Assembly: GCA_005116835.1 (NCBI GenBank)
Contig: SWDM01000019.1
Location: 124,001-188,000, forward strand
DNA from: Nitrospira sp.
GTDB lineage: Bacteria; Nitrospirota; Nitrospiria; Nitrospirales; Nitrospiraceae
Direction of reading: 5' to 3'
DNA length: 64,000 nucleotides
A program made the translations under genes and the position numbers. The notes beneath the pieces were generated by a model that worked only from the letters and a program-made list of their open reading frames with translations, made no database searches and was not told the DNA's origin. Every line of letters starts with the position of its first letter. Position 1 is the first letter of the stretch. Positions 19,108-27,951 of this stretch are shown here, piece by piece.

Positions 19108-21147
19108 ATGGCCAAGCATAAGGCAACTGCAACTGCGACAAAGAAATCTGATGTCCGTCCAGCTCCGGCAGTTACGGCGGTGGAAATGGGCGCGCGACAG
19201 CGTGAGATTTCCGTTTCCGAATTCTTCACCAAGAATCGGCATTTACTCGGGTTCGATAACCCGCGAAAAGCCTTGCTGACTTGTGTCAAGGAAGCGGTAG
19301 ACAACGCGCTGGACGCTTGCGAGGAGGCAGGAATACTTCCCGACGTCACGGTGCAGCTTGAGGTCGTGGCCGTCGGATCTTCGCCCCTGCTCCCTGCAAG
19401 CCAGGCCACCCGTTTTCGAGTGACCGTAGCCGACAACGGCCCCGGGATCGTACGCCAGCAGATTCCGAAAATCTTCGCGAAACTCTTGTACGGCTCCAAG
19501 TTCCACCGTCTGCGCATGAGCCGAGGCCAGCAGGGGATCGGTATTTCCGCGGCAGGCATGTATGGCCAACTGACGACCGGCAAACCGGTGAAGATCATCT
19601 CGCGCACCGGTCCCAAAACCTCGGCTCACTACTTCGAAGTGCAGATCGATACGAAGAAGAATGAACCCCTAGTCCATGAGAATAAGCAAATCGAATGGGA
19701 TCAGCCCCGTGGCACTCAGGTGGCGATCGAAGTCGAAGGTCGCTACCAGAAGGGCCGCGCGTCGGTCGACGAGTATCTCGAGCAAACGTCTATCGCCAAT
19801 CCACACGTGCGCCTTACCTATCGAACGCCGGAAGGCGAGACAAAGGAATATCCTCGGGCCTATCACGAACTCCCGCCGTCGCCGAAAGAGATCAAGCCCC
19901 ATCCCTACGGCATCGAGTTCGGGATGCTCCTCAAGATGCTCCAAGATGCCAAGAGCCACACCCTGTCCGAGTTTCTGGCAAGCGACTTTTGCCGGGTGAC
20001 GCCGGCGCTCGCGGATGAGATGTGTAAGGCGGCCAAGGTCTCGCCCAAGGCGAAGCCGCGCGACATTCGCGGGGCAATCGCTGAAACGCTCTATCACACG
20101 ATACAGGCCACAAAGATCATGGCTCCGCCGACCAACTGTCTTTCTCCGATCGGCGAGAAGGCGATCCTCTCAGGCCTCTATAGGCAGATCAAAGGGGAGT
20201 TTTATACAGCGGTGAGCCGTCCGCCCTCTGTGTATCGTGGCAATCCCTTCATCATCGAAGCAGGGTTGGCATTCGGAAAAGCGCCGGATAGCGCGGCGAA
20301 ACCTGAAAAGCCGTCCCAGCCCCTGGCTGAGGGGGAAGAGGAAGAAGGAGACTCGGAGCTTGCGCGAGTGATTCGCTACGCGAACCGGGTTCCCCTGTTG
20401 TATCAGCAATCCTCCTGTGCCACGTTTAAGGCGGTGTTGGCCACGACGTGGCGTAACTATGGAATCTCCCAGTCGCGAGGAGCCTTGCCGGCAGGGCCGA
20501 TGGTCATCTTCGTGCACATTGCCTCCGTCTGGGTTCCCTTTACCAGCGAGTCGAAGGAAGCAATTGCGGAATACGACGAGATCCACAAGGACATTACCCT
20601 GGCGCTTCGTGAGTGCGGTCGGCGGCTTGGACTCTTCCTGCGTCGGCGCGAACGGGCGGCGAGTGAGTTCCGGCGGCGGAATATTTTCGAACTATACATT
20701 GAGGAAGTCGTCGAAGCCTGTAATCGGTTGAAAGGCGGGAAGCTGTCGACCGAGAAGTTAAAAGCGCAGTTGCAGAAGATTGCTTCAACGAAGACCGGCG
20801 GCATCAAGACCGATGAAACACTCGGCAAGACCGGCGCCGGACCGGAGGGTTTGCCGCACTCGATCATTGTCACGGCTGAAGGAGTTGACGGCGCTGTCCC
20901 ATCGTTGCCTGAAGGATCTCATGTTATTGCGCCGCAGACTGATGTTTCCGGCGAAATACACAAAGAAGTGAAGAAGCCTTCCACAAAGCAGGGACGGAAG
21001 CAACCAGCAAAGAAGGCGGTTGGTAAGCAAGCCAAGATCAATCCCATAACAGTCCCCTCGATTGCTACGAAGGGTGGATCCTCACAGAAGCAGGCGGGCA
21101 AGGTTCGCAAGGGCAGCAAGGTTCACCTGACAGGGAAGAAAAAGTAA
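19108..21147 (+). CDS. top6B: DNA topoisomerase VI subunit B
   Basis: This GHKL-ATPase subunit of type IIB topoisomerase gates DNA double-strand passage together with subunit A. Visible motifs are the Bergerat-fold N-box LTCVKEAVDNALDACEEAG, VADNGPGIVRQQIPKIF and RGQQGIGISAAGMYGQL. The switch-lysine transducer region (FVHIASVWVPFTSESKEAI) follows. At 679 residues it is longer than archaeal homologues (about 530). The extra length is mainly a Lys-rich C-terminal tail (about residues 615-679) that could bind DNA. It lies 9 bases before top6A. Topoisomerase VI is mainly archaeal and plant, and sporadic in bacteria. Confidence 0.95.
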   Translation: MAKHKATATATKKSDVRPAPAVTAVEMGARQREISVSEFFTKNRHLLGFDNPRKALLTCVKEAVDNALDACEEAGILPDVTVQLEVVAVGSSPLLPASQATRFRVTVADNGPGIVRQQIPKIFAKLLYGSKFHRLRMSRGQQGIGISAAGMYGQLTTGKPVKIISRTGPKTSAHYFEVQIDTKKNEPLVHENKQIEWDQPRGTQVAIEVEGRYQKGRASVDEYLEQTSIANPHVRLTYRTPEGETKEYPRAYHELPPSPKEIKPHPYGIEFGMLLKMLQDAKSHTLSEFLASDFCRVTPALADEMCKAAKVSPKAKPRDIRGAIAETLYHTIQATKIMAPPTNCLSPIGEKAILSGLYRQIKGEFYTAVSRPPSVYRGNPFIIEAGLAFGKAPDSAAKPEKPSQPLAEGEEEEGDSELARVIRYANRVPLLYQQSSCATFKAVLATTWRNYGISQSRGALPAGPMVIFVHIASVWVPFTSESKEAIAEYDEIHKDITLALRECGRRLGLFLRRRERAASEFRRRNIFELYIEEVVEACNRLKGGKLSTEKLKAQLQKIASTKTGGIKTDETLGKTGAGPEGLPHSIIVTAEGVDGAVPSLPEGSHVIAPQTDVSGEIHKEVKKPSTKQGRKQPAKKAVGKQAKINPITVPSIATKGGSSQKQAGKVRKGSKVHLTGKKK

Positions 21148-21156
21148 GGACGACGT

Positions 21157-22263
21157 ATGCCGAAAACGAAGATAACGAAGAACGGGGTAGTCGAGAGGAA
21201 ACTAATCGGGCTGGCCGATCTGGTGATCACGGCCGCGCAGAAGGCCAAAGATCCGACGATGGCGATTCCGATCCGCGCCCTTTCGAATGTGTCCTTCAAC
21301 GAACGCAAGGGCCTGCTCGAAATGGGAGACAAAAAACAGTCTCGTTCGTTCTTCAATGTCGGCATGGCCAAGAAATTTATGCAGACGATATTGGTCGCAG
21401 ACGCCCTTTCAGAATTGCAACGCGCAGAATTGACGACGTCGCTCAGAGAGATCTACTACCGAACCAAGCACACCATTCAGGATTCGCACGAGAATACGTT
21501 CGATACCCAAGACGAATCGGATCCGATCATCGAGGATCTGGAAGTGTCGCTCACGGCGCTTCGCGAAGAGTTGCACGTGCGAGCGGAGAACGGCGGAAGC
21601 GTAGTCGGCCCTCTCGTGCTCGGCGACGACGGCGATCGTGTGGATTGCGCCAAGCTGGGAAAGGGTGGCTACTCAGTTCCCTCGATTGTCGAGCCTGAGT
21701 ATGTAGAGATCCGCCGCTGTACGGCAGACTTCGTGCTGCTGGTCGAAAAGGGTACGCAGTGGAATCGCCTTTCTGAAGACAAGTTTTGGCGTCGGTATAA
21801 CTGCGTGTTGCTGACTGGAAATGGACAGCCGCCCCGTGGGGTCCGCCGATTAGCTCGGCGATTGCACGAAGAATACAAGCTTCCGGTCTATGTCCTGGTC
21901 GATAACGATCCTTGGGGGTACTATATCTATTCCGTCGTCAAGCAGGGCTCGATCAATCTGGCCTTCGAGAGCCAACGGATGGCCATTCCCAAGGCCAAGT
22001 TCATCGGCCTTTCCAGCGCCGATCCAGAGCGGTACGAACTTCCGCGCAACGTCGGGATCAAACTCAATGAGAAAGATATCGCCCGCGCGAAGGAGTTACT
22101 CAACTATCAGTGGTTCCAGAAACCGGCCTGGCAGGCGGAAATCAAGCGGATGCTCGCAAGCGGGCTGAAGTATGAACTAGACGCCCTCGCCAACAAAGAC
22201 TTCCAGTACCTCACGAAAAAGTATCTGCCACGAAAACTGAAAGAAAAGGACTGGTTGGACTAA
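21157..22263 (+). CDS. top6A: DNA topoisomerase VI subunit A (Spo11-like)
   Basis: This DNA-cleaving subunit is homologous to eukaryotic Spo11. The winged-helix motif TSLREIYYRTKH contains Tyr100-Tyr101, of which the second is the probable nucleophile. The Toprim domain has the metal-binding acidic pair in YVLVDNDPWGYYIYS. The 368-residue length is normal. The B-A order with a 9-base spacing matches the usual operon. Both catalytic signatures are intact, so the enzyme is likely functional. Confidence 0.95.
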   Translation: MPKTKITKNGVVERKLIGLADLVITAAQKAKDPTMAIPIRALSNVSFNERKGLLEMGDKKQSRSFFNVGMAKKFMQTILVADALSELQRAELTTSLREIYYRTKHTIQDSHENTFDTQDESDPIIEDLEVSLTALREELHVRAENGGSVVGPLVLGDDGDRVDCAKLGKGGYSVPSIVEPEYVEIRRCTADFVLLVEKGTQWNRLSEDKFWRRYNCVLLTGNGQPPRGVRRLARRLHEEYKLPVYVLVDNDPWGYYIYSVVKQGSINLAFESQRMAIPKAKFIGLSSADPERYELPRNVGIKLNEKDIARAKELLNYQWFQKPAWQAEIKRMLASGLKYELDALANKDFQYLTKKYLPRKLKEKDWLD

Positions 22264-22301: not shown

Positions 22302-22526
22302 TTAGCTCGGGGGCAACATCATATACAGCCCGACCACAATGAATGGCGCCGCCACATACATCGCCTTCTTGCCGAAGCTATCGTAGACGCCATAGATCAA
22401 GATTGCGCCCATGAAGAAGAAATAGAGCTGTCCGATACCCCGATATCCCGCGCTATGTTCCGCCGCCAATGCGAGGGTGGGCGACCCCAGGATCAGTCCG
22501 GCTAAAAGGGCTGCTAATCGTTTCAT
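22302..22526 (-). CDS. Small membrane protein, function unknown
   Basis: The 74-residue protein begins MKRLAALLAGLILG with a signal-like segment ending near ALAA. A short loop (EHSAGYRG) is followed by two closely spaced hydrophobic stretches (GQLYFFFMGAILIYGV and YVAAPFIVVGLYMML). The ATG at 22526 has GGAGAT upstream and is preferred over 22592. A 31-base inverted repeat (22600-22630, CGCCCTC with GAGGGCG) lies in its leader. No family is recognised. Confidence 0.6.
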   Translation of the reverse strand: MKRLAALLAGLILGSPTLALAAEHSAGYRGIGQLYFFFMGAILIYGVYDSFGKKAMYVAAPFIVVGLYMMLPPS

Positions 22527-22769
22527 CGCAATCTCCGTTTCGATGAGGTGAAGACACAAGACTCGCTGTCGATGGCTGGTACTGTTGCACAAACAAGAAC
22601 GCCCTCATGGCGAAGTTTGCCAAGAGGGCGTAACTCTCTACGTGAACGATGCTGAGTGGCTGGATTGGGCGAAGCTAGCAAGGAGTCACAATACACCCCT
22701 GTGTCGTATGGATAAGAACGATCAATCTGCGCCTTCTCATAGCGGGAAGTCAAACTGGGACCAGTAAGG

Positions 22770-23060
22770 GGGTGAGGCGCGAAACGCGTGAGGTGTTAGG
22801 CGTAAGGGGTTAGGGGTGAGGGCAGCAGAATGGTTAATGCTGAATTATTAATGTGGAATGGTGGGCGGGAGGGGCGAGGGATGTGATGGCAGAGTGTTTC
22901 ATGTTGAATGATCAATGTGGAATGATGGGGATGAGCGGGGGAGGGGTAGGGGGCGAAGAAAGCGCTGGACCGCCGCGCGAGGAGGGTTGTCGGAGAAGTT
23001 ATCAAATGGTGCAATCGTTGTTATGCCCCGCGGTAGGCGTGAGGGGTAAATCGTAAGAAA
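22770..23060. repeat. GTTAGG/AATG word-repeat region
   Basis: This non-coding stretch is made of short variant words: GTGAGGTGTTAGGCGTAAGG-type at 22785-22825 and again near 23028-23048. A direct repeat of about 30 bases built on TGAATNATNAATGTGGAATG lies at 22834-22864 and 22899-22930. No gene is supported, and composition shifts from G-rich to A/T-rich within it. It marks the left part of the accessory region. Confidence 0.5.
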
Positions 23061-23095
23061 CAGAGGGGAGCGAAGTAGGGTATTAGAACTGGCTT

Positions 23096-23300
23096 TCAGG
23101 TTGAAAAATCAAAAAAGATTCCCGACCCCTTTGATTTTCCCCGACCCCTTTGATTTTCCCTTCGATGCCTGATGTATGTGCTGCTGACGAATGGCCATAT
23201 TGATCGGCGTGTCGTCAAAGTTACGCGATCCCACCGGGAAATCAAAAAGCCACTCGCCAAGGCGCCGAGAAACCTCGAAGTCAATCCCTTTCTGCTATCA
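23096..23300. mobile_element. Possible remnant of a REP-associated (Y1) transposase locus
   Basis: A perfect tandem 19-base repeat (23122-23140 and 23141-23159, CCGACCCCTTTGATTTTCC) is followed by plus-strand codons reading YVLLTNGHID. This resembles the YVLMTNHVH metal-binding HUH strand of Y1 transposases with an inserted residue. The frame is short and closed, so at best it is a decayed fragment. The assignment rests on one short motif. Confidence 0.3.
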
Positions 23301-23328
23301 CTTCGATTGCATCTGCTCAGCAGAGAAC

Positions 23329-23456
23329 TAGCAGGATGCTGAAAAAGTCCGCCAGCTTTGTTCTCGCATCGTTCAGAGACTCAACGTACCGAAGCGTACG
23401 CCTCGCCTCTTCGCTCGCTGCGGCCTCGCTGGACAGCCATTTTGAGCATCCTGCGA
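23329..23456. repeat. MITE-like element, copy 2
   Basis: The left end TAGCAGGATGCTGAAAAAG and right end CATTTTGAGCATCCTGC are inverted repeats. The sequence next to the left end matches the reverse complement of copy 1 over about 26 bases (through AGTCCGCCAGC). The core CTTCGCTCGCTGCGGCC also matches copy 1 in reverse. It is about 128 bases, the shortest and cleanest copy. Confidence 0.75.
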
Positions 23457-23525
23457 GCAGGTCTTGCGACATCACTATCCGTAAGGTCTAGTGAATTTTG
23501 AGCAGAAACTGAGCTTTTCAGCGGC

Positions 23526-23834
23526 CTACTTGAAGGGCTTCACGCCGTGAGCGTCACTCATGCCTATCGCATTACCCTGACACTTCGTGTAACCAAGAAA
23601 GAAATTGACCTGCTCGATATCGGAAGCCACGATGAGGTGTATCGATAGCCGGACTGCCCCGCAACGCGAAATGTTGAATTGCAAGACCAGATCCTCATTC
23701 TTGGGAACCGGCTGCGATTCAGCCCATAAGCCTTTGCGCCCCTCCCGCGCTTGCGTCTCGGCGTCGAATTGAAGAGGCCAAACGGGGTGGGTGACCAGAG
23801 GCCTTAAGAGCATGACCCCAGGCACCTGTATCAA
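23526..23834 (-). pseudogene. Nuclease-like (SNase family) C-terminal remnant
   Basis: Within this minus-strand frame, 23703-23768 encodes FDAETQAREGRKGLWAESQP followed by VP. This closely resembles the conserved C-terminal segment of staphylococcal-nuclease-like proteins (A-x-x-ARxxxxGLWA-x-x-PVP). The catalytic Arg-Glu-Arg core is missing upstream, and the sequence after it does not resemble the family. It is interpreted as a leftover of a decayed nuclease gene. The rest of the frame is not assigned. Confidence 0.45.
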
Positions 23835-23844
23835 TCCTAAGATA

Positions 23845-23873
23845 TTGACAGTATTCCCATCAAGCTGTAGGGT
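23845..23873 (+). promoter_or_regulatory. Candidate promoter of the 23.9-26.2 kb cassette
   Basis: A perfect TTGACA (23845-23850) is followed after 17 bases by TAGGGT (23868-23873), a weak -10 box. It lies 33 bases upstream of the first cassette ATG, which itself has AAAGGAG at 5-6 bases. Confidence 0.5.
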
Positions 23874-23906
23874 CTGTCACCAAACTAGGGAACGAAAGGA
23901 GTACCG

Positions 23907-24479
23907 ATGAGCGAAAAAGAAGTGGCGGATCTGCAAGTTTTGACAGAAGTTCTAACTGCACTCAGAAAGTTGGATCATGAAGGGCAAGAAAGAATGATTC
24001 AAACCATATGTACATTCTTGAACCTTGCTCCTGGATCACAATTACCTAAAGCTCCCTCACAAAGCTCCTCCAGCCCCTCGCATACATTTTCACGTGCAGG
24101 GAGTTTCTCTGAAGATCGTTCCATGTCAGCCAAAGATTTCATGTCGGACAAACAACCTCGAACAGATGTTGAGAAAGTGGTCTGCTTGGCCTTCTATCTA
24201 ACACATTACGCCAGTACTCCTCATTTTCAGACAGTTGATATAAGTAAGTTGAACACGGACGCAGCGCAAATTAAGTTTTCGAACGCAGCCTTTTCAGTGA
24301 ACAATGCTGTCCAATCCGGCTATCTGGCCCCAGCTCCGCAGGGGAAAAAGCAAATCAGTGCTGCAGGTGAACGATTTGTTCAGGCCTTGCCCGACAGGGA
24401 TGCTGCCAAGAAGGCAATGAGCAATGCGCGCCCTCGTCGGCCTAATCGAAAGGTAAATGCTCCTGAATCAGAAAGCTGA
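23907..24479 (+). CDS. Unknown protein, probable winged-helix domain (cassette gene 1)
   Basis: This 190-residue soluble protein has no recognised family. An N-terminal helical part (about 1-45, LTALRKLDHEGQERMI) is followed by a Ser/Pro-rich linker (about 48-75). A compact domain (about 85-170) follows: KVVCLAFYLTHYA, DISKLNTDAA, NAAFSVNNAVQSGYLAPAP, and ISAAGERFVQALPD. This spacing of a helix, a recognition-like helix and a Gly-Tyr wing resembles the winged-helix modules found in some defence and partition proteins (inference). The tail is basic (RPRRPNRK). It starts behind AAAGGAG, and the next gene begins 3 bases after its stop. Codon use looks more A/T-rich than the housekeeping genes. 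Confidence 0.8.
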   Translation: MSEKEVADLQVLTEVLTALRKLDHEGQERMIQTICTFLNLAPGSQLPKAPSQSSSSPSHTFSRAGSFSEDRSMSAKDFMSDKQPRTDVEKVVCLAFYLTHYASTPHFQTVDISKLNTDAAQIKFSNAAFSVNNAVQSGYLAPAPQGKKQISAAGERFVQALPDRDAAKKAMSNARPRRPNRKVNAPESES

Positions 24480-24482
24480 CCC

Positions 24483-25514
24483 ATGCCAGGAATTCATAAG
24501 TCAATTAAAAGACATTCTTCGAAACGCCTTGTCATCTTTAACCATAAAGGTGGCGTGGGTAAAACCACGCTAACCATTAACATCGCTTATGAACTCGCTT
24601 CGCTTGGGAAGAATGTATTGCTCGTTGATTCTGATCCACAATGCAATATCACATCTTATCTCGTTGATGATATGACCCTAGATGCTTTACTCGATAAGTC
24701 TGACGGTGATGATGGAGAGACGATCTGGTCGTCGCTTAAGCCAATCGTAGACGGTGAGGGTGGTCTCAACGAAATTGAGCCTATCAAGCATGGGCGAAGA
24801 TTGTTTTTATTGCCAGGAGATGTTCGACTTTCTGAGTTCGAGCAAGTGCTTAATGATCTATGGAGAGAGTGCGATCAGCGAAGGCTCAGAGGCTTTCGTG
24901 GCGTTTCCGCTCTGAGTGTTCTTGTAAACCAAACCTGTGTGAACCACGATATCGACTATGTCTTATTTGATTGTGGACCGAATATAGGGCCATTAAACAA
25001 AGCCATTCTGCTGGATTGTGACCATTTTATTGTTCCGGCAGCCTGCGATCAGTTTTCCGTCCGTGCTCTAAAGACTCTTGGTCATACACTTTCGGGATGG
25101 CTTAAGGACTGGGAAAGTGCTGTGCGCTTTGCGCCAGAGGGGATCTATCTGTTGCCTGGGAAGCCGAAATTTCTCGGATATATTCCTCAGCGTTTTAGGG
25201 TCTACCGAGGGCTACCATCAAGCGGCTATTCTTCCTACTTTTCGAAGATAGAGCGGAGCATCAGTTCTGAAATTGTTTCAGTTTTCCGCAAAGAGGATCC
25301 TGAGCTGGCATCACGTTCAATACGAGATTTACGAATTGGCACGGTTAAGGATTTAGGGCAATTGGCAAATGCAGGACAGTCTCAGGGTCTCCCAATATGG
25401 GACGTGGCTGAAGGAACCCCAGAGCAAAAGACTGAAGCGAGAAAACTTTTCGAGACAATCGCCAAGAACATCATCCGACTTACCTCCCATGCGGAAGCGA
25501 ATGCGAACACGTGA
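24483..25514 (+). CDS. ParA/MinD-type ATPase (cassette gene 2)
   Basis: This 343-residue P-loop ATPase has a deviant Walker A (FNHKGGVGKTTLTINIAYEL), then LLVDSDPQCNITSYL, the acidic Walker B region DYVLFDCGPNIGPL, and VPAACDQFSVRAL. It is of the AAA_31/ParA group, which dimerises on ATP and often binds DNA or positions partners. It is unlikely to be a chromosome-partition gene: no parB or parS is nearby, and an extra segment of about 100 residues (about 210-310) lies between the core and the C-terminus. It overlaps the next gene by one base, implying a stoichiometric complex or shared control with the RelA/SpoT-like enzyme. Confidence 0.93.
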   Translation: MPGIHKSIKRHSSKRLVIFNHKGGVGKTTLTINIAYELASLGKNVLLVDSDPQCNITSYLVDDMTLDALLDKSDGDDGETIWSSLKPIVDGEGGLNEIEPIKHGRRLFLLPGDVRLSEFEQVLNDLWRECDQRRLRGFRGVSALSVLVNQTCVNHDIDYVLFDCGPNIGPLNKAILLDCDHFIVPAACDQFSVRALKTLGHTLSGWLKDWESAVRFAPEGIYLLPGKPKFLGYIPQRFRVYRGLPSSGYSSYFSKIERSISSEIVSVFRKEDPELASRSIRDLRIGTVKDLGQLANAGQSQGLPIWDVAEGTPEQKTEARKLFETIAKNIIRLTSHAEANANT

Positions 25515-26209
25515 TGGCAAAATCACCTATTACGAAAAGTGAGCTTAGACAAATAGATCGACTCGTTACCCATTACAACAACAACCAAGAACTCTTTATT
25601 CGCTTCTCCGACAACGTTCGAGCGCTCTTTAGCTCTGACAGATTGGCACCCCATATTCACTCTACGAAATGGCGCATCAAGAAGCCTGATCATCTGAAGG
25701 ATAAATTAATTCGCAAGGCAGTCGAATTCAAATCAGCCGGGATGGAATTTGACATAACAGAAGAAAATCTTTTCGAGCGCATAACTGATCTTGTTGGATT
25801 CAGAATACTCCACCTCCACACCAGTCAATTTAAATCAATTAACAAGATCGTCCTAGATCTCATCAAGGAAGAGGAATGGGAGATTATCGAAGAGCCTACG
25901 GCAAGAACTTGGGATGATGAGTCTCGCGATTATTTTAACACTCTCGGCATAAAGACACGCGACAGCGAACGCATGTATACGAGCGTGCACTATGTCTTCA
26001 CGGCGAACAAAAAGAAGGCTTGCGCCGCTGAGTTACAGGTGCGAACCCTTGCTGAAGAGCTTTGGGGAGAAGTTGATCACAAAATCAATTATCCACACCC
26101 CACTGATCGTTCGTCCTGTCGTGAGCAAATAAAAGTTCTTGCACGTATAACCTCTGGTTGCACCAGGCTGGTCGATTCGATCTTTCACTCTCATCAAGAA
26201 AACGATTAG
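25514..26209 (+). CDS. RelA/SpoT-fold nucleotide synthetase (cassette gene 3)
   Basis: This 231-residue single-domain protein has the RelA/SpoT synthetase fold, without hydrolase, TGS or ACT domains. Visible family features are STKWRIKKPDHLKDKLIRKA (basic ATP-side segment) and ERITDLVGFRILHLH, which corresponds to D-I-x-G-I-R. Also present are MYTSVHYVF, corresponding to G-Y-x-S-x-H with the nucleobase-stacking Tyr and the His kept, and ELQVRTLAEELWGEVDHKINY, corresponding to E-I-Q-I-R-T and the trailing H-K. Likely product is (p)ppGpp, (p)ppApp or pyrophosphorylated tRNA, as in small alarmone synthetases and toxSAS toxins; which one cannot be read from sequence. The ATG at 25514 overlaps the ParA stop. 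No cognate antitoxin or hydrolase is adjacent. Confidence 0.9.
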   Translation: MAKSPITKSELRQIDRLVTHYNNNQELFIRFSDNVRALFSSDRLAPHIHSTKWRIKKPDHLKDKLIRKAVEFKSAGMEFDITEENLFERITDLVGFRILHLHTSQFKSINKIVLDLIKEEEWEIIEEPTARTWDDESRDYFNTLGIKTRDSERMYTSVHYVFTANKKKACAAELQVRTLAEELWGEVDHKINYPHPTDRSSCREQIKVLARITSGCTRLVDSIFHSHQEND

Positions 26210-26312
26210 ACCTCAATAAAAAGGCACCTTGCCAGTCCAACTTTTGTCACCTGTCCTGGCGCAATTGTATGTTCGGCAACATCAACAGGCAAATGGACAA
26301 GGAGGCACGAAC

Positions 26313-26464
26313 ATGCCTCGGAAGAACTCTCCCACCGACCTGCCCCCGTGCTCCACGACCTGTTGGCGCAGTCCAACGACCGCAAGTCGTTTAATCAGGC
26401 TGTGCTGCGAATCTTGAAGGGCACAGAAAATGTACTGAGAGTCTTTTCTGTAGGCCTAAAATGA
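26313..26464 (+). pseudogene. Small gene frameshifted in a C5 run
   Basis: AAGGAGG (26299-26305) precedes an ATG that encodes MPRKNSPTDLPP. At the CCCCC run 26343-26347 the coding signal jumps frame and continues as VLHDLLAQSNDRKSFNQAV through RILKGTENVLRVF to a TGA at 26462-26464. One extra C would give an intact protein of about 50 residues. It is either a recent frameshift, phase variation or a sequencing error. No family is recognised. It lies about 100 bases after the synthetase gene in the same direction. Confidence 0.45.
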
Positions 26465-26896
26465 TTCTTTCAAGCGTACTTGCTTCTCCACTCTTGGAAG
26501 AGCACCCATGTTGGTCTACGTGCAGCCTCGAAAGCTTATCCTCATATATGCATTCTCAACGAGAGGGCAGGCATAGTCTACACTGCGCGCATCGAGGGAC
26601 CATTGTTTAATCGTGGGGCCTCTGCGAGCACAGAGACTGTGCCAGCTTTCTCGCCTCCTACCCTTCATAGGGCGCGTGTTTAGGGAGCACAGGACCAACG
26701 TGAATGTTCTCTCGCCCGCTTCCTTTCTCCACCTTCTCTATAAGGGGGTGGCCAAGGTTGCCCTCGACTGCGCGCCTCGAAATGAGGGCCTTCCTAGACC
26801 GCGCGTTCTGCGAGCATTGGGCATTGATGAAGCTACCTAGACCATGATCCCCCTGTTGCGGGCACCCGTCAAACTAGGAAAATTCCGGTTGCCTCT
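26465..26896. repeat. Gene-free stretch with GC-word repeats (two copies)
   Basis: No gene is supported. Two variants of a composite word (CTGCGCGC, then TCGA and GAGGG, about 25 bases, then GCGAGCA) occur at 26582-26631 and 26768-26817. The second also has GACCGCGCGTT. Further copies lie at 27521-27560 and, inside the third MITE-like element, at 27857-27909. Confidence 0.5.
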
Positions 26897-26924
26897 TTGC
26901 AAGTAAACTGCCTACCGTTATAAT
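26897..26924 (+). promoter_or_regulatory. Promoter of hicBA
   Basis: TTGCAA (26897-26902) and a perfect TATAAT (26919-26924) are 16 bases apart. The first ATG of the open frame (26923) overlaps the -10 box, so translation more likely begins at the ATG at 26932, almost exactly at the expected transcript start. That implies a leaderless mRNA. Confidence 0.65.
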
Positions 26925-26931
26925 GGTTACC

Positions 26932-27123
26932 ATGGAATCGACCAAATATATCTATTGGCAGGATCAAGACCACTGGCTCGGCTACCTGCAGGACTACCCC
27001 GATTACTGGACGCAGGGAGAGTCGCTTGATGACCTGCAAGCCCATCTTCGCGATCTCTACCTGGACCTTACCAGCGGCGAAATCCCCGGAGTGCGGAAGC
27101 TCGCTGAGCTAACACTCCGGTGA
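26932..27123 (+). CDS. hicB: HicB-like antitoxin
   Basis: This 63-residue protein matches the short HicB partial RNase-H-like fold: a beta hairpin (YIYWQDQDHWLGYLQDYPDY), the hallmark TQGESLDDLQAHLRDLYLDL, and a short tail. It lacks an added DNA-binding domain. It neutralises the HicA mRNA interferase encoded immediately downstream with a GTGA overlap. The order antitoxin then toxin is common for this short class. The ATG at 26932 is preferred because an upstream one lies in the promoter. It is part of the accessory island. Confidence 0.85.
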   Translation: MESTKYIYWQDQDHWLGYLQDYPDYWTQGESLDDLQAHLRDLYLDLTSGEIPGVRKLAELTLR

Positions 27124-27299
27124 AACGCAAAGATCTGATCCGACAGATTGAAGCCGACGGTTGCGTGCTCGTTCGTCACGGCGGAAAGCATGATTGGTAT
27201 CACAATCCCATCACGAAGGTTTCCCAGCCCATCCCTCGCCACACCGAAATCAAGGAACACCTGGCAAAACGCATTCTAAAGATGTTGAGTAATCCCTAG
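27120..27299 (+). CDS. hicA: HicA-like mRNA interferase toxin
   Basis: This 59-residue double-stranded-RNA-binding-like toxin reads KRKDLIRQIEADGCVLVRHG, then GKHDWYHNP with the catalytic His, IPRHTEI, and a C-terminal helix LAKRILKML. These are the standard HicA landmarks. It starts with GTG overlapping the hicB stop (GTGA). It cleaves mRNAs when HicB is depleted. The gene is intact and likely functional. Confidence 0.9.
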   Translation: MKRKDLIRQIEADGCVLVRHGGKHDWYHNPITKVSQPIPRHTEIKEHLAKRILKMLSNP

Positions 27300-27735
27300 T
27301 TTTTCTTAACCCTACCGGAGCGACCTGTCGTTTTCCCTTCGCACAGGCAACTACCTCACCTGCTCATCCACGGGTAAATATTTCCCCCCCCGCATTACCC
27401 TCCGATTGCTTCCCAATCGAGTTCTCGTGGACGTGCCGTTTTCCCTGACGAGGGCCTTCCGATTCCTTATGCCATTCCTTACACGCCCACCCTATGGCAT
27501 TCCGAGACATGCCATTAACCCGAGCGAGGGGAGCTTGGGACCGCGCGTTGCATGAGCGCAGAAGATCATCAGGCTCCGTCCCATCCTCTGTTCTGCGAGC
27601 AAGGAAGGCATCTGGATGCTCTCGATCTTCTATTGATTCGAGTCCACCAGTCAGCTAGGCGGTGAGGTCGGCTTAGAAAAGAGGCGATAGTGCCTTGCTC
27701 TGAAATATTACAGTTGGTGCTGAGGCCTCAATACT
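27300..27735. other. Gene-free stretch after hicA
   Basis: No coding sequence is supported. A GC-word repeat copy (GAGCGAGGGGAG, then GACCGCGCGTTGCATGAGC) lies at 27521-27560. The remainder shows no recognisable pattern. Confidence 0.4.
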
Positions 27736-27951
27736 CAGGATGCTCAAAAAGGCCGGACTTCTCACCCGCCCAACCCTGGCGCGCCGAGACGCGCCTTTTC
27801 CCAAGTAAGGCCGCAGCGGATTGTCACTTTTATTATGGGGTGGCTGGGATGATCCCAACTGCGCGCGTCCAACGAGGGGAGTCTTCGATCGCGCGTTGCG
27901 CGAGCAAGGGGATTGTCCCAGTTACCCCGTCTCTTTTTTCAGCATCCGCTA
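27736..27951. repeat. MITE-like element, copy 3, with nested GC-word repeat
   Basis: The left end is CAGGATGCTCAAAAAGGCC and the right end CTCTTTTTTCAGCATCCGCTA. The right end contains the TAG stop codon of argJ (27949-27951). The interior shares CTCACCCGCCCA and AAGGCCGCAGCG with copy 1 and contains a GC-word repeat at 27857-27909. At about 216 bases it is the longest copy, consistent with a nested insertion. Confidence 0.7.

Follow-up and report, generated by a model that had tools for sequence, protein, structure and literature searches.

The window, a stretch of 64,000 nucleotides of Nitrospira sp. DNA, carries a compact cassette of three co-directional genes on the forward strand. Gene 1 (positions 23907 to 24479) encodes a protein of 190 amino acids, gene 2 (24483 to 25514) a 343-residue ParA-type ATPase (SIMIBI, AAA_31) that we propose as a switch, and gene 3 (25514 to 26209) a 231-residue RelA/SpoT-fold synthetase without a hydrolase, which we propose as a toxic effector. 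The coordinates confirm the 3-base and 1-base junctions reported in a preliminary description of this DNA: the gene 1 stop codon ends at 24479, three bases before the gene 2 ATG at 24483, and the last base of the gene 2 stop codon, 25514, is also the first base of the gene 3 ATG. A ribosome-binding site, AAAGGAG, can be read from the sequence in front of gene 1 (23896 to 23902, forward strand). The same description gave the cassette its own TTGACA promoter. The hexamer is present at 23845 to 23850, and with a 17-base spacer and TAGGGT as the corresponding -10 it forms a candidate promoter on the forward strand (23845 to 23873, likewise read from the sequence), but this -10 is weak and a consensus sigma-70 scan did not report the site, so we do not retain TTGACA as the promoter of the cassette. 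A frameshifted small gene at 26313, once suggested as a lost fourth part, was also set aside: its second match in the genome spans only 36 bp, no longer genomic repeat was found, and it has no counterpart in related cassettes.

The G+C content of the cassette is 45.9%, versus 55.2% for the window, and lies below that of every sliding 2.3-kb window tested. This copy is chromosomal and outside any P2 prophage. In the genus, the interval that holds it is bounded by an argJ-like gene on one side and a gene for a small membrane protein on the other; in the window it contains the cassette together with a HicBA-like pair (HicA was confirmed by Pfam), in two congeners it contains other cargo (DUF5677 and LAGLIDADG genes in one, ThiF and ORF6N genes in the other), and in three congeners it is empty. 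Because the interval is variably filled or empty among congeners, the cassette is accessory DNA. Topoisomerase VI-like genes are further neighbors in the window, and the host genome also encodes one long RSH.

Gene 3 matches the Pfam family RelA_SpoT (PF04607, 6e-17) over residues 54 to 195, and Pfam detects neither an HD/hydrolase domain nor any extra domain, in keeping with its earlier description as a bare synthetase domain. Both motifs named in that description, Y-x-S-x-H and E-x-Q-x-R-T, were located, as Y155-T-S-V-H159 and E173-L-Q175-V-R177-T178. The AF2 model is confident (pLDDT 93.6) and is nearest in fold to RelQ (Z 18.3) and RelP (16.5), followed by the exported synthetase 8vx3 (13.1), the anti-phage toxSAS CapRel (12.1), Tas1 (9.9), and FaRel2 (7.8). 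RelQ and RelP are growth-modulating (p)ppGpp synthetases, and since the fold is nearest to theirs, the product of gene 3 may be mild rather than toxic. Against the NCBIfam YjbM equivalog, the protein scores 35.6 bits, with a cut-off of 320.

FaRel2 contacts ATP through R64, K66, S70, K74, R77, D90, G93, R95, E145, and Q147 and the acceptor through Y128 (PMC11782079). By motif alignments rather than superposition, the gene 3 equivalents of the ATP residues are R54, K56, H60, K64, R67, D92, G95, R97, E173, and Q175, and that of the acceptor residue is Y155. These donor and acceptor residues, H60 included, are invariant in 25 synthetase sequences, and the change from Ser70 in FaRel2 to His60 in gene 3 is fixed in the family. 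Judged by its sequence, then, the synthetase active site is intact. Loss of catalytic geometry had been named as a point that would speak against the preliminary description; with the active-site residues kept and a confident model, no such loss was seen.

ParA ATPases are textbook DNA-positioning machines. That gene 2 is ParA-like is evidenced by its match to AAA_31 (3.7e-28) and by a signature-lysine (deviant) Walker A motif, K22-GGVGKTT, as had been claimed, and the D49xD51PQ and D163 positions are conserved across the family. In its deviant Walker A and AAA_31 fold, gene 2 resembles the ATPase of ParABS partition systems. It differs from them in being followed by a RelA_SpoT gene and in having no recognized ParB partner: inspection, rather than a ParB-specific HMM, showed no ParB-type gene next to the cassette, either in the window or at related loci. 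Its scores against partition ParA models are far under the cut-offs (NF041546, 60.9 bits against 180; TIGR03453, 45.7 against 348), and its PADLOC matches are restricted to the region of the Walker A motif. A match to a described partition operon, another point that would have spoken against the preliminary description, was accordingly not seen.

Gene 1 is harder to place. Its protein consists of an N-terminal helical pair (residues 3 to 38), a low-complexity linker (about 42 to 68), and, tentatively, a C-terminal wHTH-like domain (about 75 to 172). It has no match in Pfam, PADLOC, NCBIfam, or PHROG and no significant match in the PDB. The earlier label of winged-helix-like survives in a tentative form, since the MarR-type structural matches of the model have an E value of 0.14, but no family match accompanies them, and the AF2 model itself (pLDDT 69.7) is too weak for a fold assignment. 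Gene 1 occurs in the same position in 13 of 36 distinct loci, namely the window and 12 others. A search of viral contigs returned a single trio, already known, and a search of plasmids returned none. A candidate paralogue of gene 1 ahead of the trio in locus L008 was dropped, as its hhalign probability was just 12%. Gene 1 is confined to one branch and most likely encodes a DNA-binding adaptor or an autorepressor that would work with the ParA.

The linkage between ATPase and synthetase is considerably more constant. In an initial gene 3 search of public genomes, all 12 relatives had a ParA gene immediately upstream, mostly with 4- or 1-base overlaps at the junctions. Half of them, from Acidobacteria, Pinirhizobacter, Rhodanobacter, Lysobacter, and Eremiobacterota, retained the full trio with its order kept, and the other six, from Bacteroidetes and one Elusimicrobium, had a two-gene form. 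Because the trio recurs elsewhere in identical order, its grouping is not due to chance. Extending the synthetase search to whole genomes and viral contigs, with near-identical copies counted once and the window included, gave 36 distinct loci from several phyla, many of them in prophages, and in every one the gene directly upstream of the synthetase is a ParA gene. Rare co-occurrence, which had been named as a point that would speak against the preliminary description, was not seen in these counts (36/36 for the pair, 13/36 for the trio). The synthetases score at least 255 bits against the profile in all loci except L031, where the gene is broken; among other imperfect loci, L019 retains only the ParA end at a contig edge, and the ParA start of L035 is seemingly disrupted. 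None of eight more distant, longer solo synthetases has ParA upstream. Per genome the cassette is rare, at roughly 1% in each clade, being found in 3 of 296 genomes of the window's phylum and, for two other clades, in 3/250 and 5/295, counts that leave out solo forms; a close copy of the L028 pair was absent from the E. coli genomes searched.

Prophage genes placed by PHROG matches, with P2 genes mapped by tblastn, revealed where the mobile copies reside. In P2-like prophages, the pair is flanked by replication gene A and portal gene Q in L020, L023, L026, and L028 (L022 is a copy of the L020 locus), lies next to Q in L021, and lies next to D in L029. Genes A and Q of P2 bound the old/tin hotspot, described for antiviral systems (PMC9122126). 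In L024, the pair adjoins a phage-type integrase, with an ogr-like match upstream. Defense genes are neighbors at several loci: AriA and AriB (PARIS) lie upstream of the pair in L025, a PD-Lambda-1 protein is encoded downstream in L009, and a TIR-TM protein is encoded nearby in L031. Copies outside prophages, including that of the window with only its HicBA-like pair, mostly have no recognized multigene defense system alongside.

A search of viral contigs with the ParA alignment yielded 80 loci, in which the gene directly behind ParA encodes the synthetase, a RiboL-PSP HEPN protein (14 loci), a SIR2_2 protein (7 loci), a cyclase-like protein (4 loci), or PglZ (1 locus), as assigned by Pfam for four HEPN and two SIR2 members and by sequence clustering for the others. 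Many of these loci have no co-directional gene behind ParA. The arginine-to-histidine motif of the HEPN proteins is kept in 14/14, as RNxxxH in 13 and as RHxxxH in L149. SIR2 proteins retain GxGVS, NFD, and the catalytic His, and the one tested, from L091, matches the ThsA, LmuA, and Dsr1 models. The cyclase-like group matched nothing in the PDB by sequence, and its name is a tentative one suggested by the motif pattern FxDxxGF/FSDS. Members linked to HEPN or SIR2 also occupy P2 positions, with L138 beside Q, L091 beside A, L089 near Q and int, and L097 beside ogr.

A single tree of 103 ParAs contains the synthetase-, HEPN-, SIR2-, and cyclase-linked members, on which effector types are strongly clustered (9 changes, versus 54 expected by shuffling). 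Within either the trio or the duo form, ParA and synthetase are both about 50 to 55% identical; between the two forms, the synthetases are 41% identical and the ParAs just 30%. Locus L068 combines gene 1 and a trio-type ParA (70 to 71% identical to those of trio loci L066 and L067, and 26 to 33% to those of duo loci, L063 excepted) with a duo-type synthetase (mostly 47 to 58% identical to duo loci and 39 to 45% to trio loci). L063 displays the same mismatch in weaker form. Because AU tests for effector exchange were not decisive (p 0.20 and 0.053), it is these pairwise identities that suggest a re-pairing of synthetase and ParA in the two mosaic loci. The immunity regions of both phage SE1 (P22-like) and an E. 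coli prophage contain related ParAs without an annotated partner. The ParA of the HEPN-linked locus L119 is identical to Pf1 orf317, and hence Pf1 has a ParA-HEPN pair in which the second gene lacks an annotation.

The preliminary description could name no described system that matched the cassette; this needs qualifying, since two relatives of the idea have been published. Anantharaman (2013) predicted a dyad of ParA/Soj and a MAE_18760-type HEPN protein to be a toxin-antitoxin system (PMC3710099). As outlined there, that dyad similarly couples a ParA-like ATPase gene to a small toxic enzyme, and the HEPN-coupled ParAs found here fall in the cassette's ParA tree; the effector of the cassette, however, is RelA_SpoT rather than HEPN, its branch adds a wHTH-like gene, and the 2013 description of the dyad mentions neither a synthetase nor a SIR2 or cyclase partner. 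GiPD474 (WP_000368620.1), published in 2025, is a solo AAA_31/ParA-like protein of about 360 amino acids from Gifsy prophages that causes a loss of about 5 logs in the plating of T4 and of Alf5 (PMC12724215). It shares with gene 2 the AAA_31/ParA type and with the family prophage carriage, and phage resistance has been demonstrated for it, but it works alone, without a synthetase. Common ancestry with this exact ParA family is likely, judged from its published description.

Comparison with other known systems likewise gives partial resemblances. Like the toxSAS enzymes FaRel2, CapRel, and PhRel, gene 3 encodes a small RelA/SpoT synthetase that has kept its catalytic residues without a hydrolase, and the cassette shares their prophage carriage and, likely, a growth-arrest effector. 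Unlike them, its synthetase is nearer in fold to RelQ/RelP than to FaRel2, and its partner is a ParA ATPase; neither gene 1 nor gene 2 matches the known toxSAS antitoxin types (Panacea, hydrolase, or fused pseudo-zinc-finger). RelQ and RelP provide the closest fold (Z 16 to 18) and active site, but the cassette synthetase is mobile and ParA coupled, carries the Ser-to-His change in its donor site and a WDD/P insertion, and scores under the YjbM family cut-off. PARIS, Septu, and other OLD-like pairs share the logic of an ATPase sensor with a separable toxic effector, as well as prophage slots, but their ATPases belong to the ABC/OLD class and that of the cassette to the SIMIBI/ParA class. PADLOC-DB 2023 has no model for gene 1 or gene 3, nor for the cassette as a named system. 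In the open-licence literature searched, which offers weak evidence of absence, the ParA-synthetase pair and the wHTH-like trio were not found described, no experiment on any such pair came up, and no account was found of one ParA family working with synthetase, HEPN, SIR2, and cyclase-like effectors alike.

With a probability of roughly 0.6, we propose that the cassette is a horizontally acquired anti-phage module of the abortive-infection type, with ParA as the switch and the synthetase as the effector, and that it most likely belongs to a modular anti-phage system as a branch not described so far. The pair is linked, conserved, and mobile, with intact active sites; copies of it reside in prophage defense hotspots, and varied effectors stand behind its ParA family. 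What we infer is how the switch works, what triggers it, which substrate is used, and that the outcome is anti-phage. The ATPase, as a nucleotide-dependent switch, would keep the co-translated synthetase inactive until infection, via a phage protein, phage DNA, or nucleoid damage, altered its state and thereby freed or activated the enzyme. The synthetase would then move pyrophosphate from ATP to a guanine or adenine nucleotide or to the 3' CCA end of tRNA, halting growth ahead of phage release, and gene 1 may act as an adaptor or repressor with ParA. The sensor/ATPase pair switching a synthetase in phage defense, as first envisaged, is a prediction that fits all of the findings, among them the linkage, the hotspots, and the SIR2 and HEPN sister pairings.

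The strongest rival is a toxin-antitoxin (addiction) module, in which ParA would act as antitoxin against a toxic synthetase, the module mainly stabilizing itself or its mobile element, with defense incidental or absent. Short overlapping genes, mobility, and the HicBA-like pair in the same acquired interval are what such a module would lead one to expect, and the same logic has been proposed for ParA/Soj-HEPN dyads (PMC3710099). We nevertheless consider it unlikely, as the slot between P2 genes A and Q and the SIR2 partners indicate defense, and solo ParAs persist without a toxin in prophage immunity regions. There is overlap between the two readings, as CapRel and other toxSAS pairs are toxin-antitoxin and defense systems at once.

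The nearness of RelQ and RelP in fold, along with a long RSH in the host that could clear ppGpp, would suit a housekeeping or stress regulator making (p)ppGpp in the manner of those enzymes, with ParA and gene 1 tuning it to growth or the cell cycle. Such a role is improbable given the rarity and mobility of the cassette: it is present in so few genomes of the phylum, has atypical G+C, falls far short of the YjbM equivalog, and has homologues that are prophage cargo. A role in partition or plasmid maintenance, with ParA positioning DNA and the synthetase serving as a post-segregational killer, would account for the ParA fold and its signature lysine. It is nonetheless the least plausible reading, and a very improbable one, because no ParB-type partner is recognized by inspection at the window or related loci and gene 2 scores so far under the partition cut-offs; copies also sit inside integrated prophages and chromosomes, and the gene behind ParA varies.

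Returning to the anti-phage reading, we posit, at about even odds, a general, as yet undescribed class of prokaryotic defense that relies on a single ParA/Soj-type ATPase as both sensor of infection and switch, with an exchangeable toxic enzyme encoded behind it. That enzyme could be a RelA/SpoT synthetase, a HEPN RNase, a SIR2 NADase, a cyclase-like enzyme, or none, and a wHTH-like adaptor would have been added in some branches. If true, this class would be the SIMIBI-ATPase counterpart of ABC- and STAND-ATPase-gated systems. Exchangeable effectors with known biochemistry on one ATPase lineage make the idea directly testable. The cassette would add a further route for infection-triggered RelA/SpoT-fold enzymes, and a ParA family that gates toxic enzymes would add a role in immunity to the ParA fold and could explain the many orphan parA genes in prophages.

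The acquired interval that holds the cassette is a slot flanked by a small membrane gene on one side and an argJ-like gene on the other (window positions 22302-27948), and comparison with six loci of the same genus (L170-L172, L177, L178 and L180) revealed that this slot is variable within the genus. Three congeners carry no cargo there, and two others have different cargo, either DUF5677/LAGLIDADG or ThiF/ORF6N genes. At L170, where the stretch examined does not reach the membrane gene, a PemK toxin gene follows argJ. Downstream of the cassette, after some 700 bases, the same acquired interval also contains a HicBA-like toxin-antitoxin pair (26923-27299); its HicA matches PF07927 (1.9e-11), while its partner resembles UPF0150/HicB weakly, with a score below the cut-off. 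Upstream, two neighboring genes (19108-22263) encode putative topoisomerase VI B and A subunits and, as read by eye, may represent an archaeal-type topoisomerase VI in a bacterial genome. This gene pair is kept in L171 and L172, to which the putative A subunit is 96-98% identical.

More distant from the cassette synthetase is a family of longer, solo RelA/SpoT synthetases (~260-390 amino acids) that lack a ParA (L036-L039, L064, and L069-L071) and are carried by plasmids and a tectivirus-like Vibrio phage. Additionally, a prophage copy of the synthetase gene (L031, 4869-5567) is split into two reading frames instead of one, and it is therefore probably inactive.

Other genes also follow related ParAs. 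At L101 (4022-7314), a full-length PglZ protein, a component of BREX/Pgl defense, is encoded directly after the ParA. In L086, L098, L104, and L145, the ParA precedes a small conserved family that shares the motifs FxDxxGF and FSDS with class III nucleotide cyclases; the members searched had no Pfam, NCBIfam, or PDB match. Finally, phage Pf1 (L155; AY324828) was compared with the HEPN-linked ParA locus L119 (4001-5549). The annotated start of the Pf1 ParA, orf317, is truncated, and an unannotated HEPN-type gene lies directly 3' of it; thus, Pf1 has a ParA-HEPN pair.
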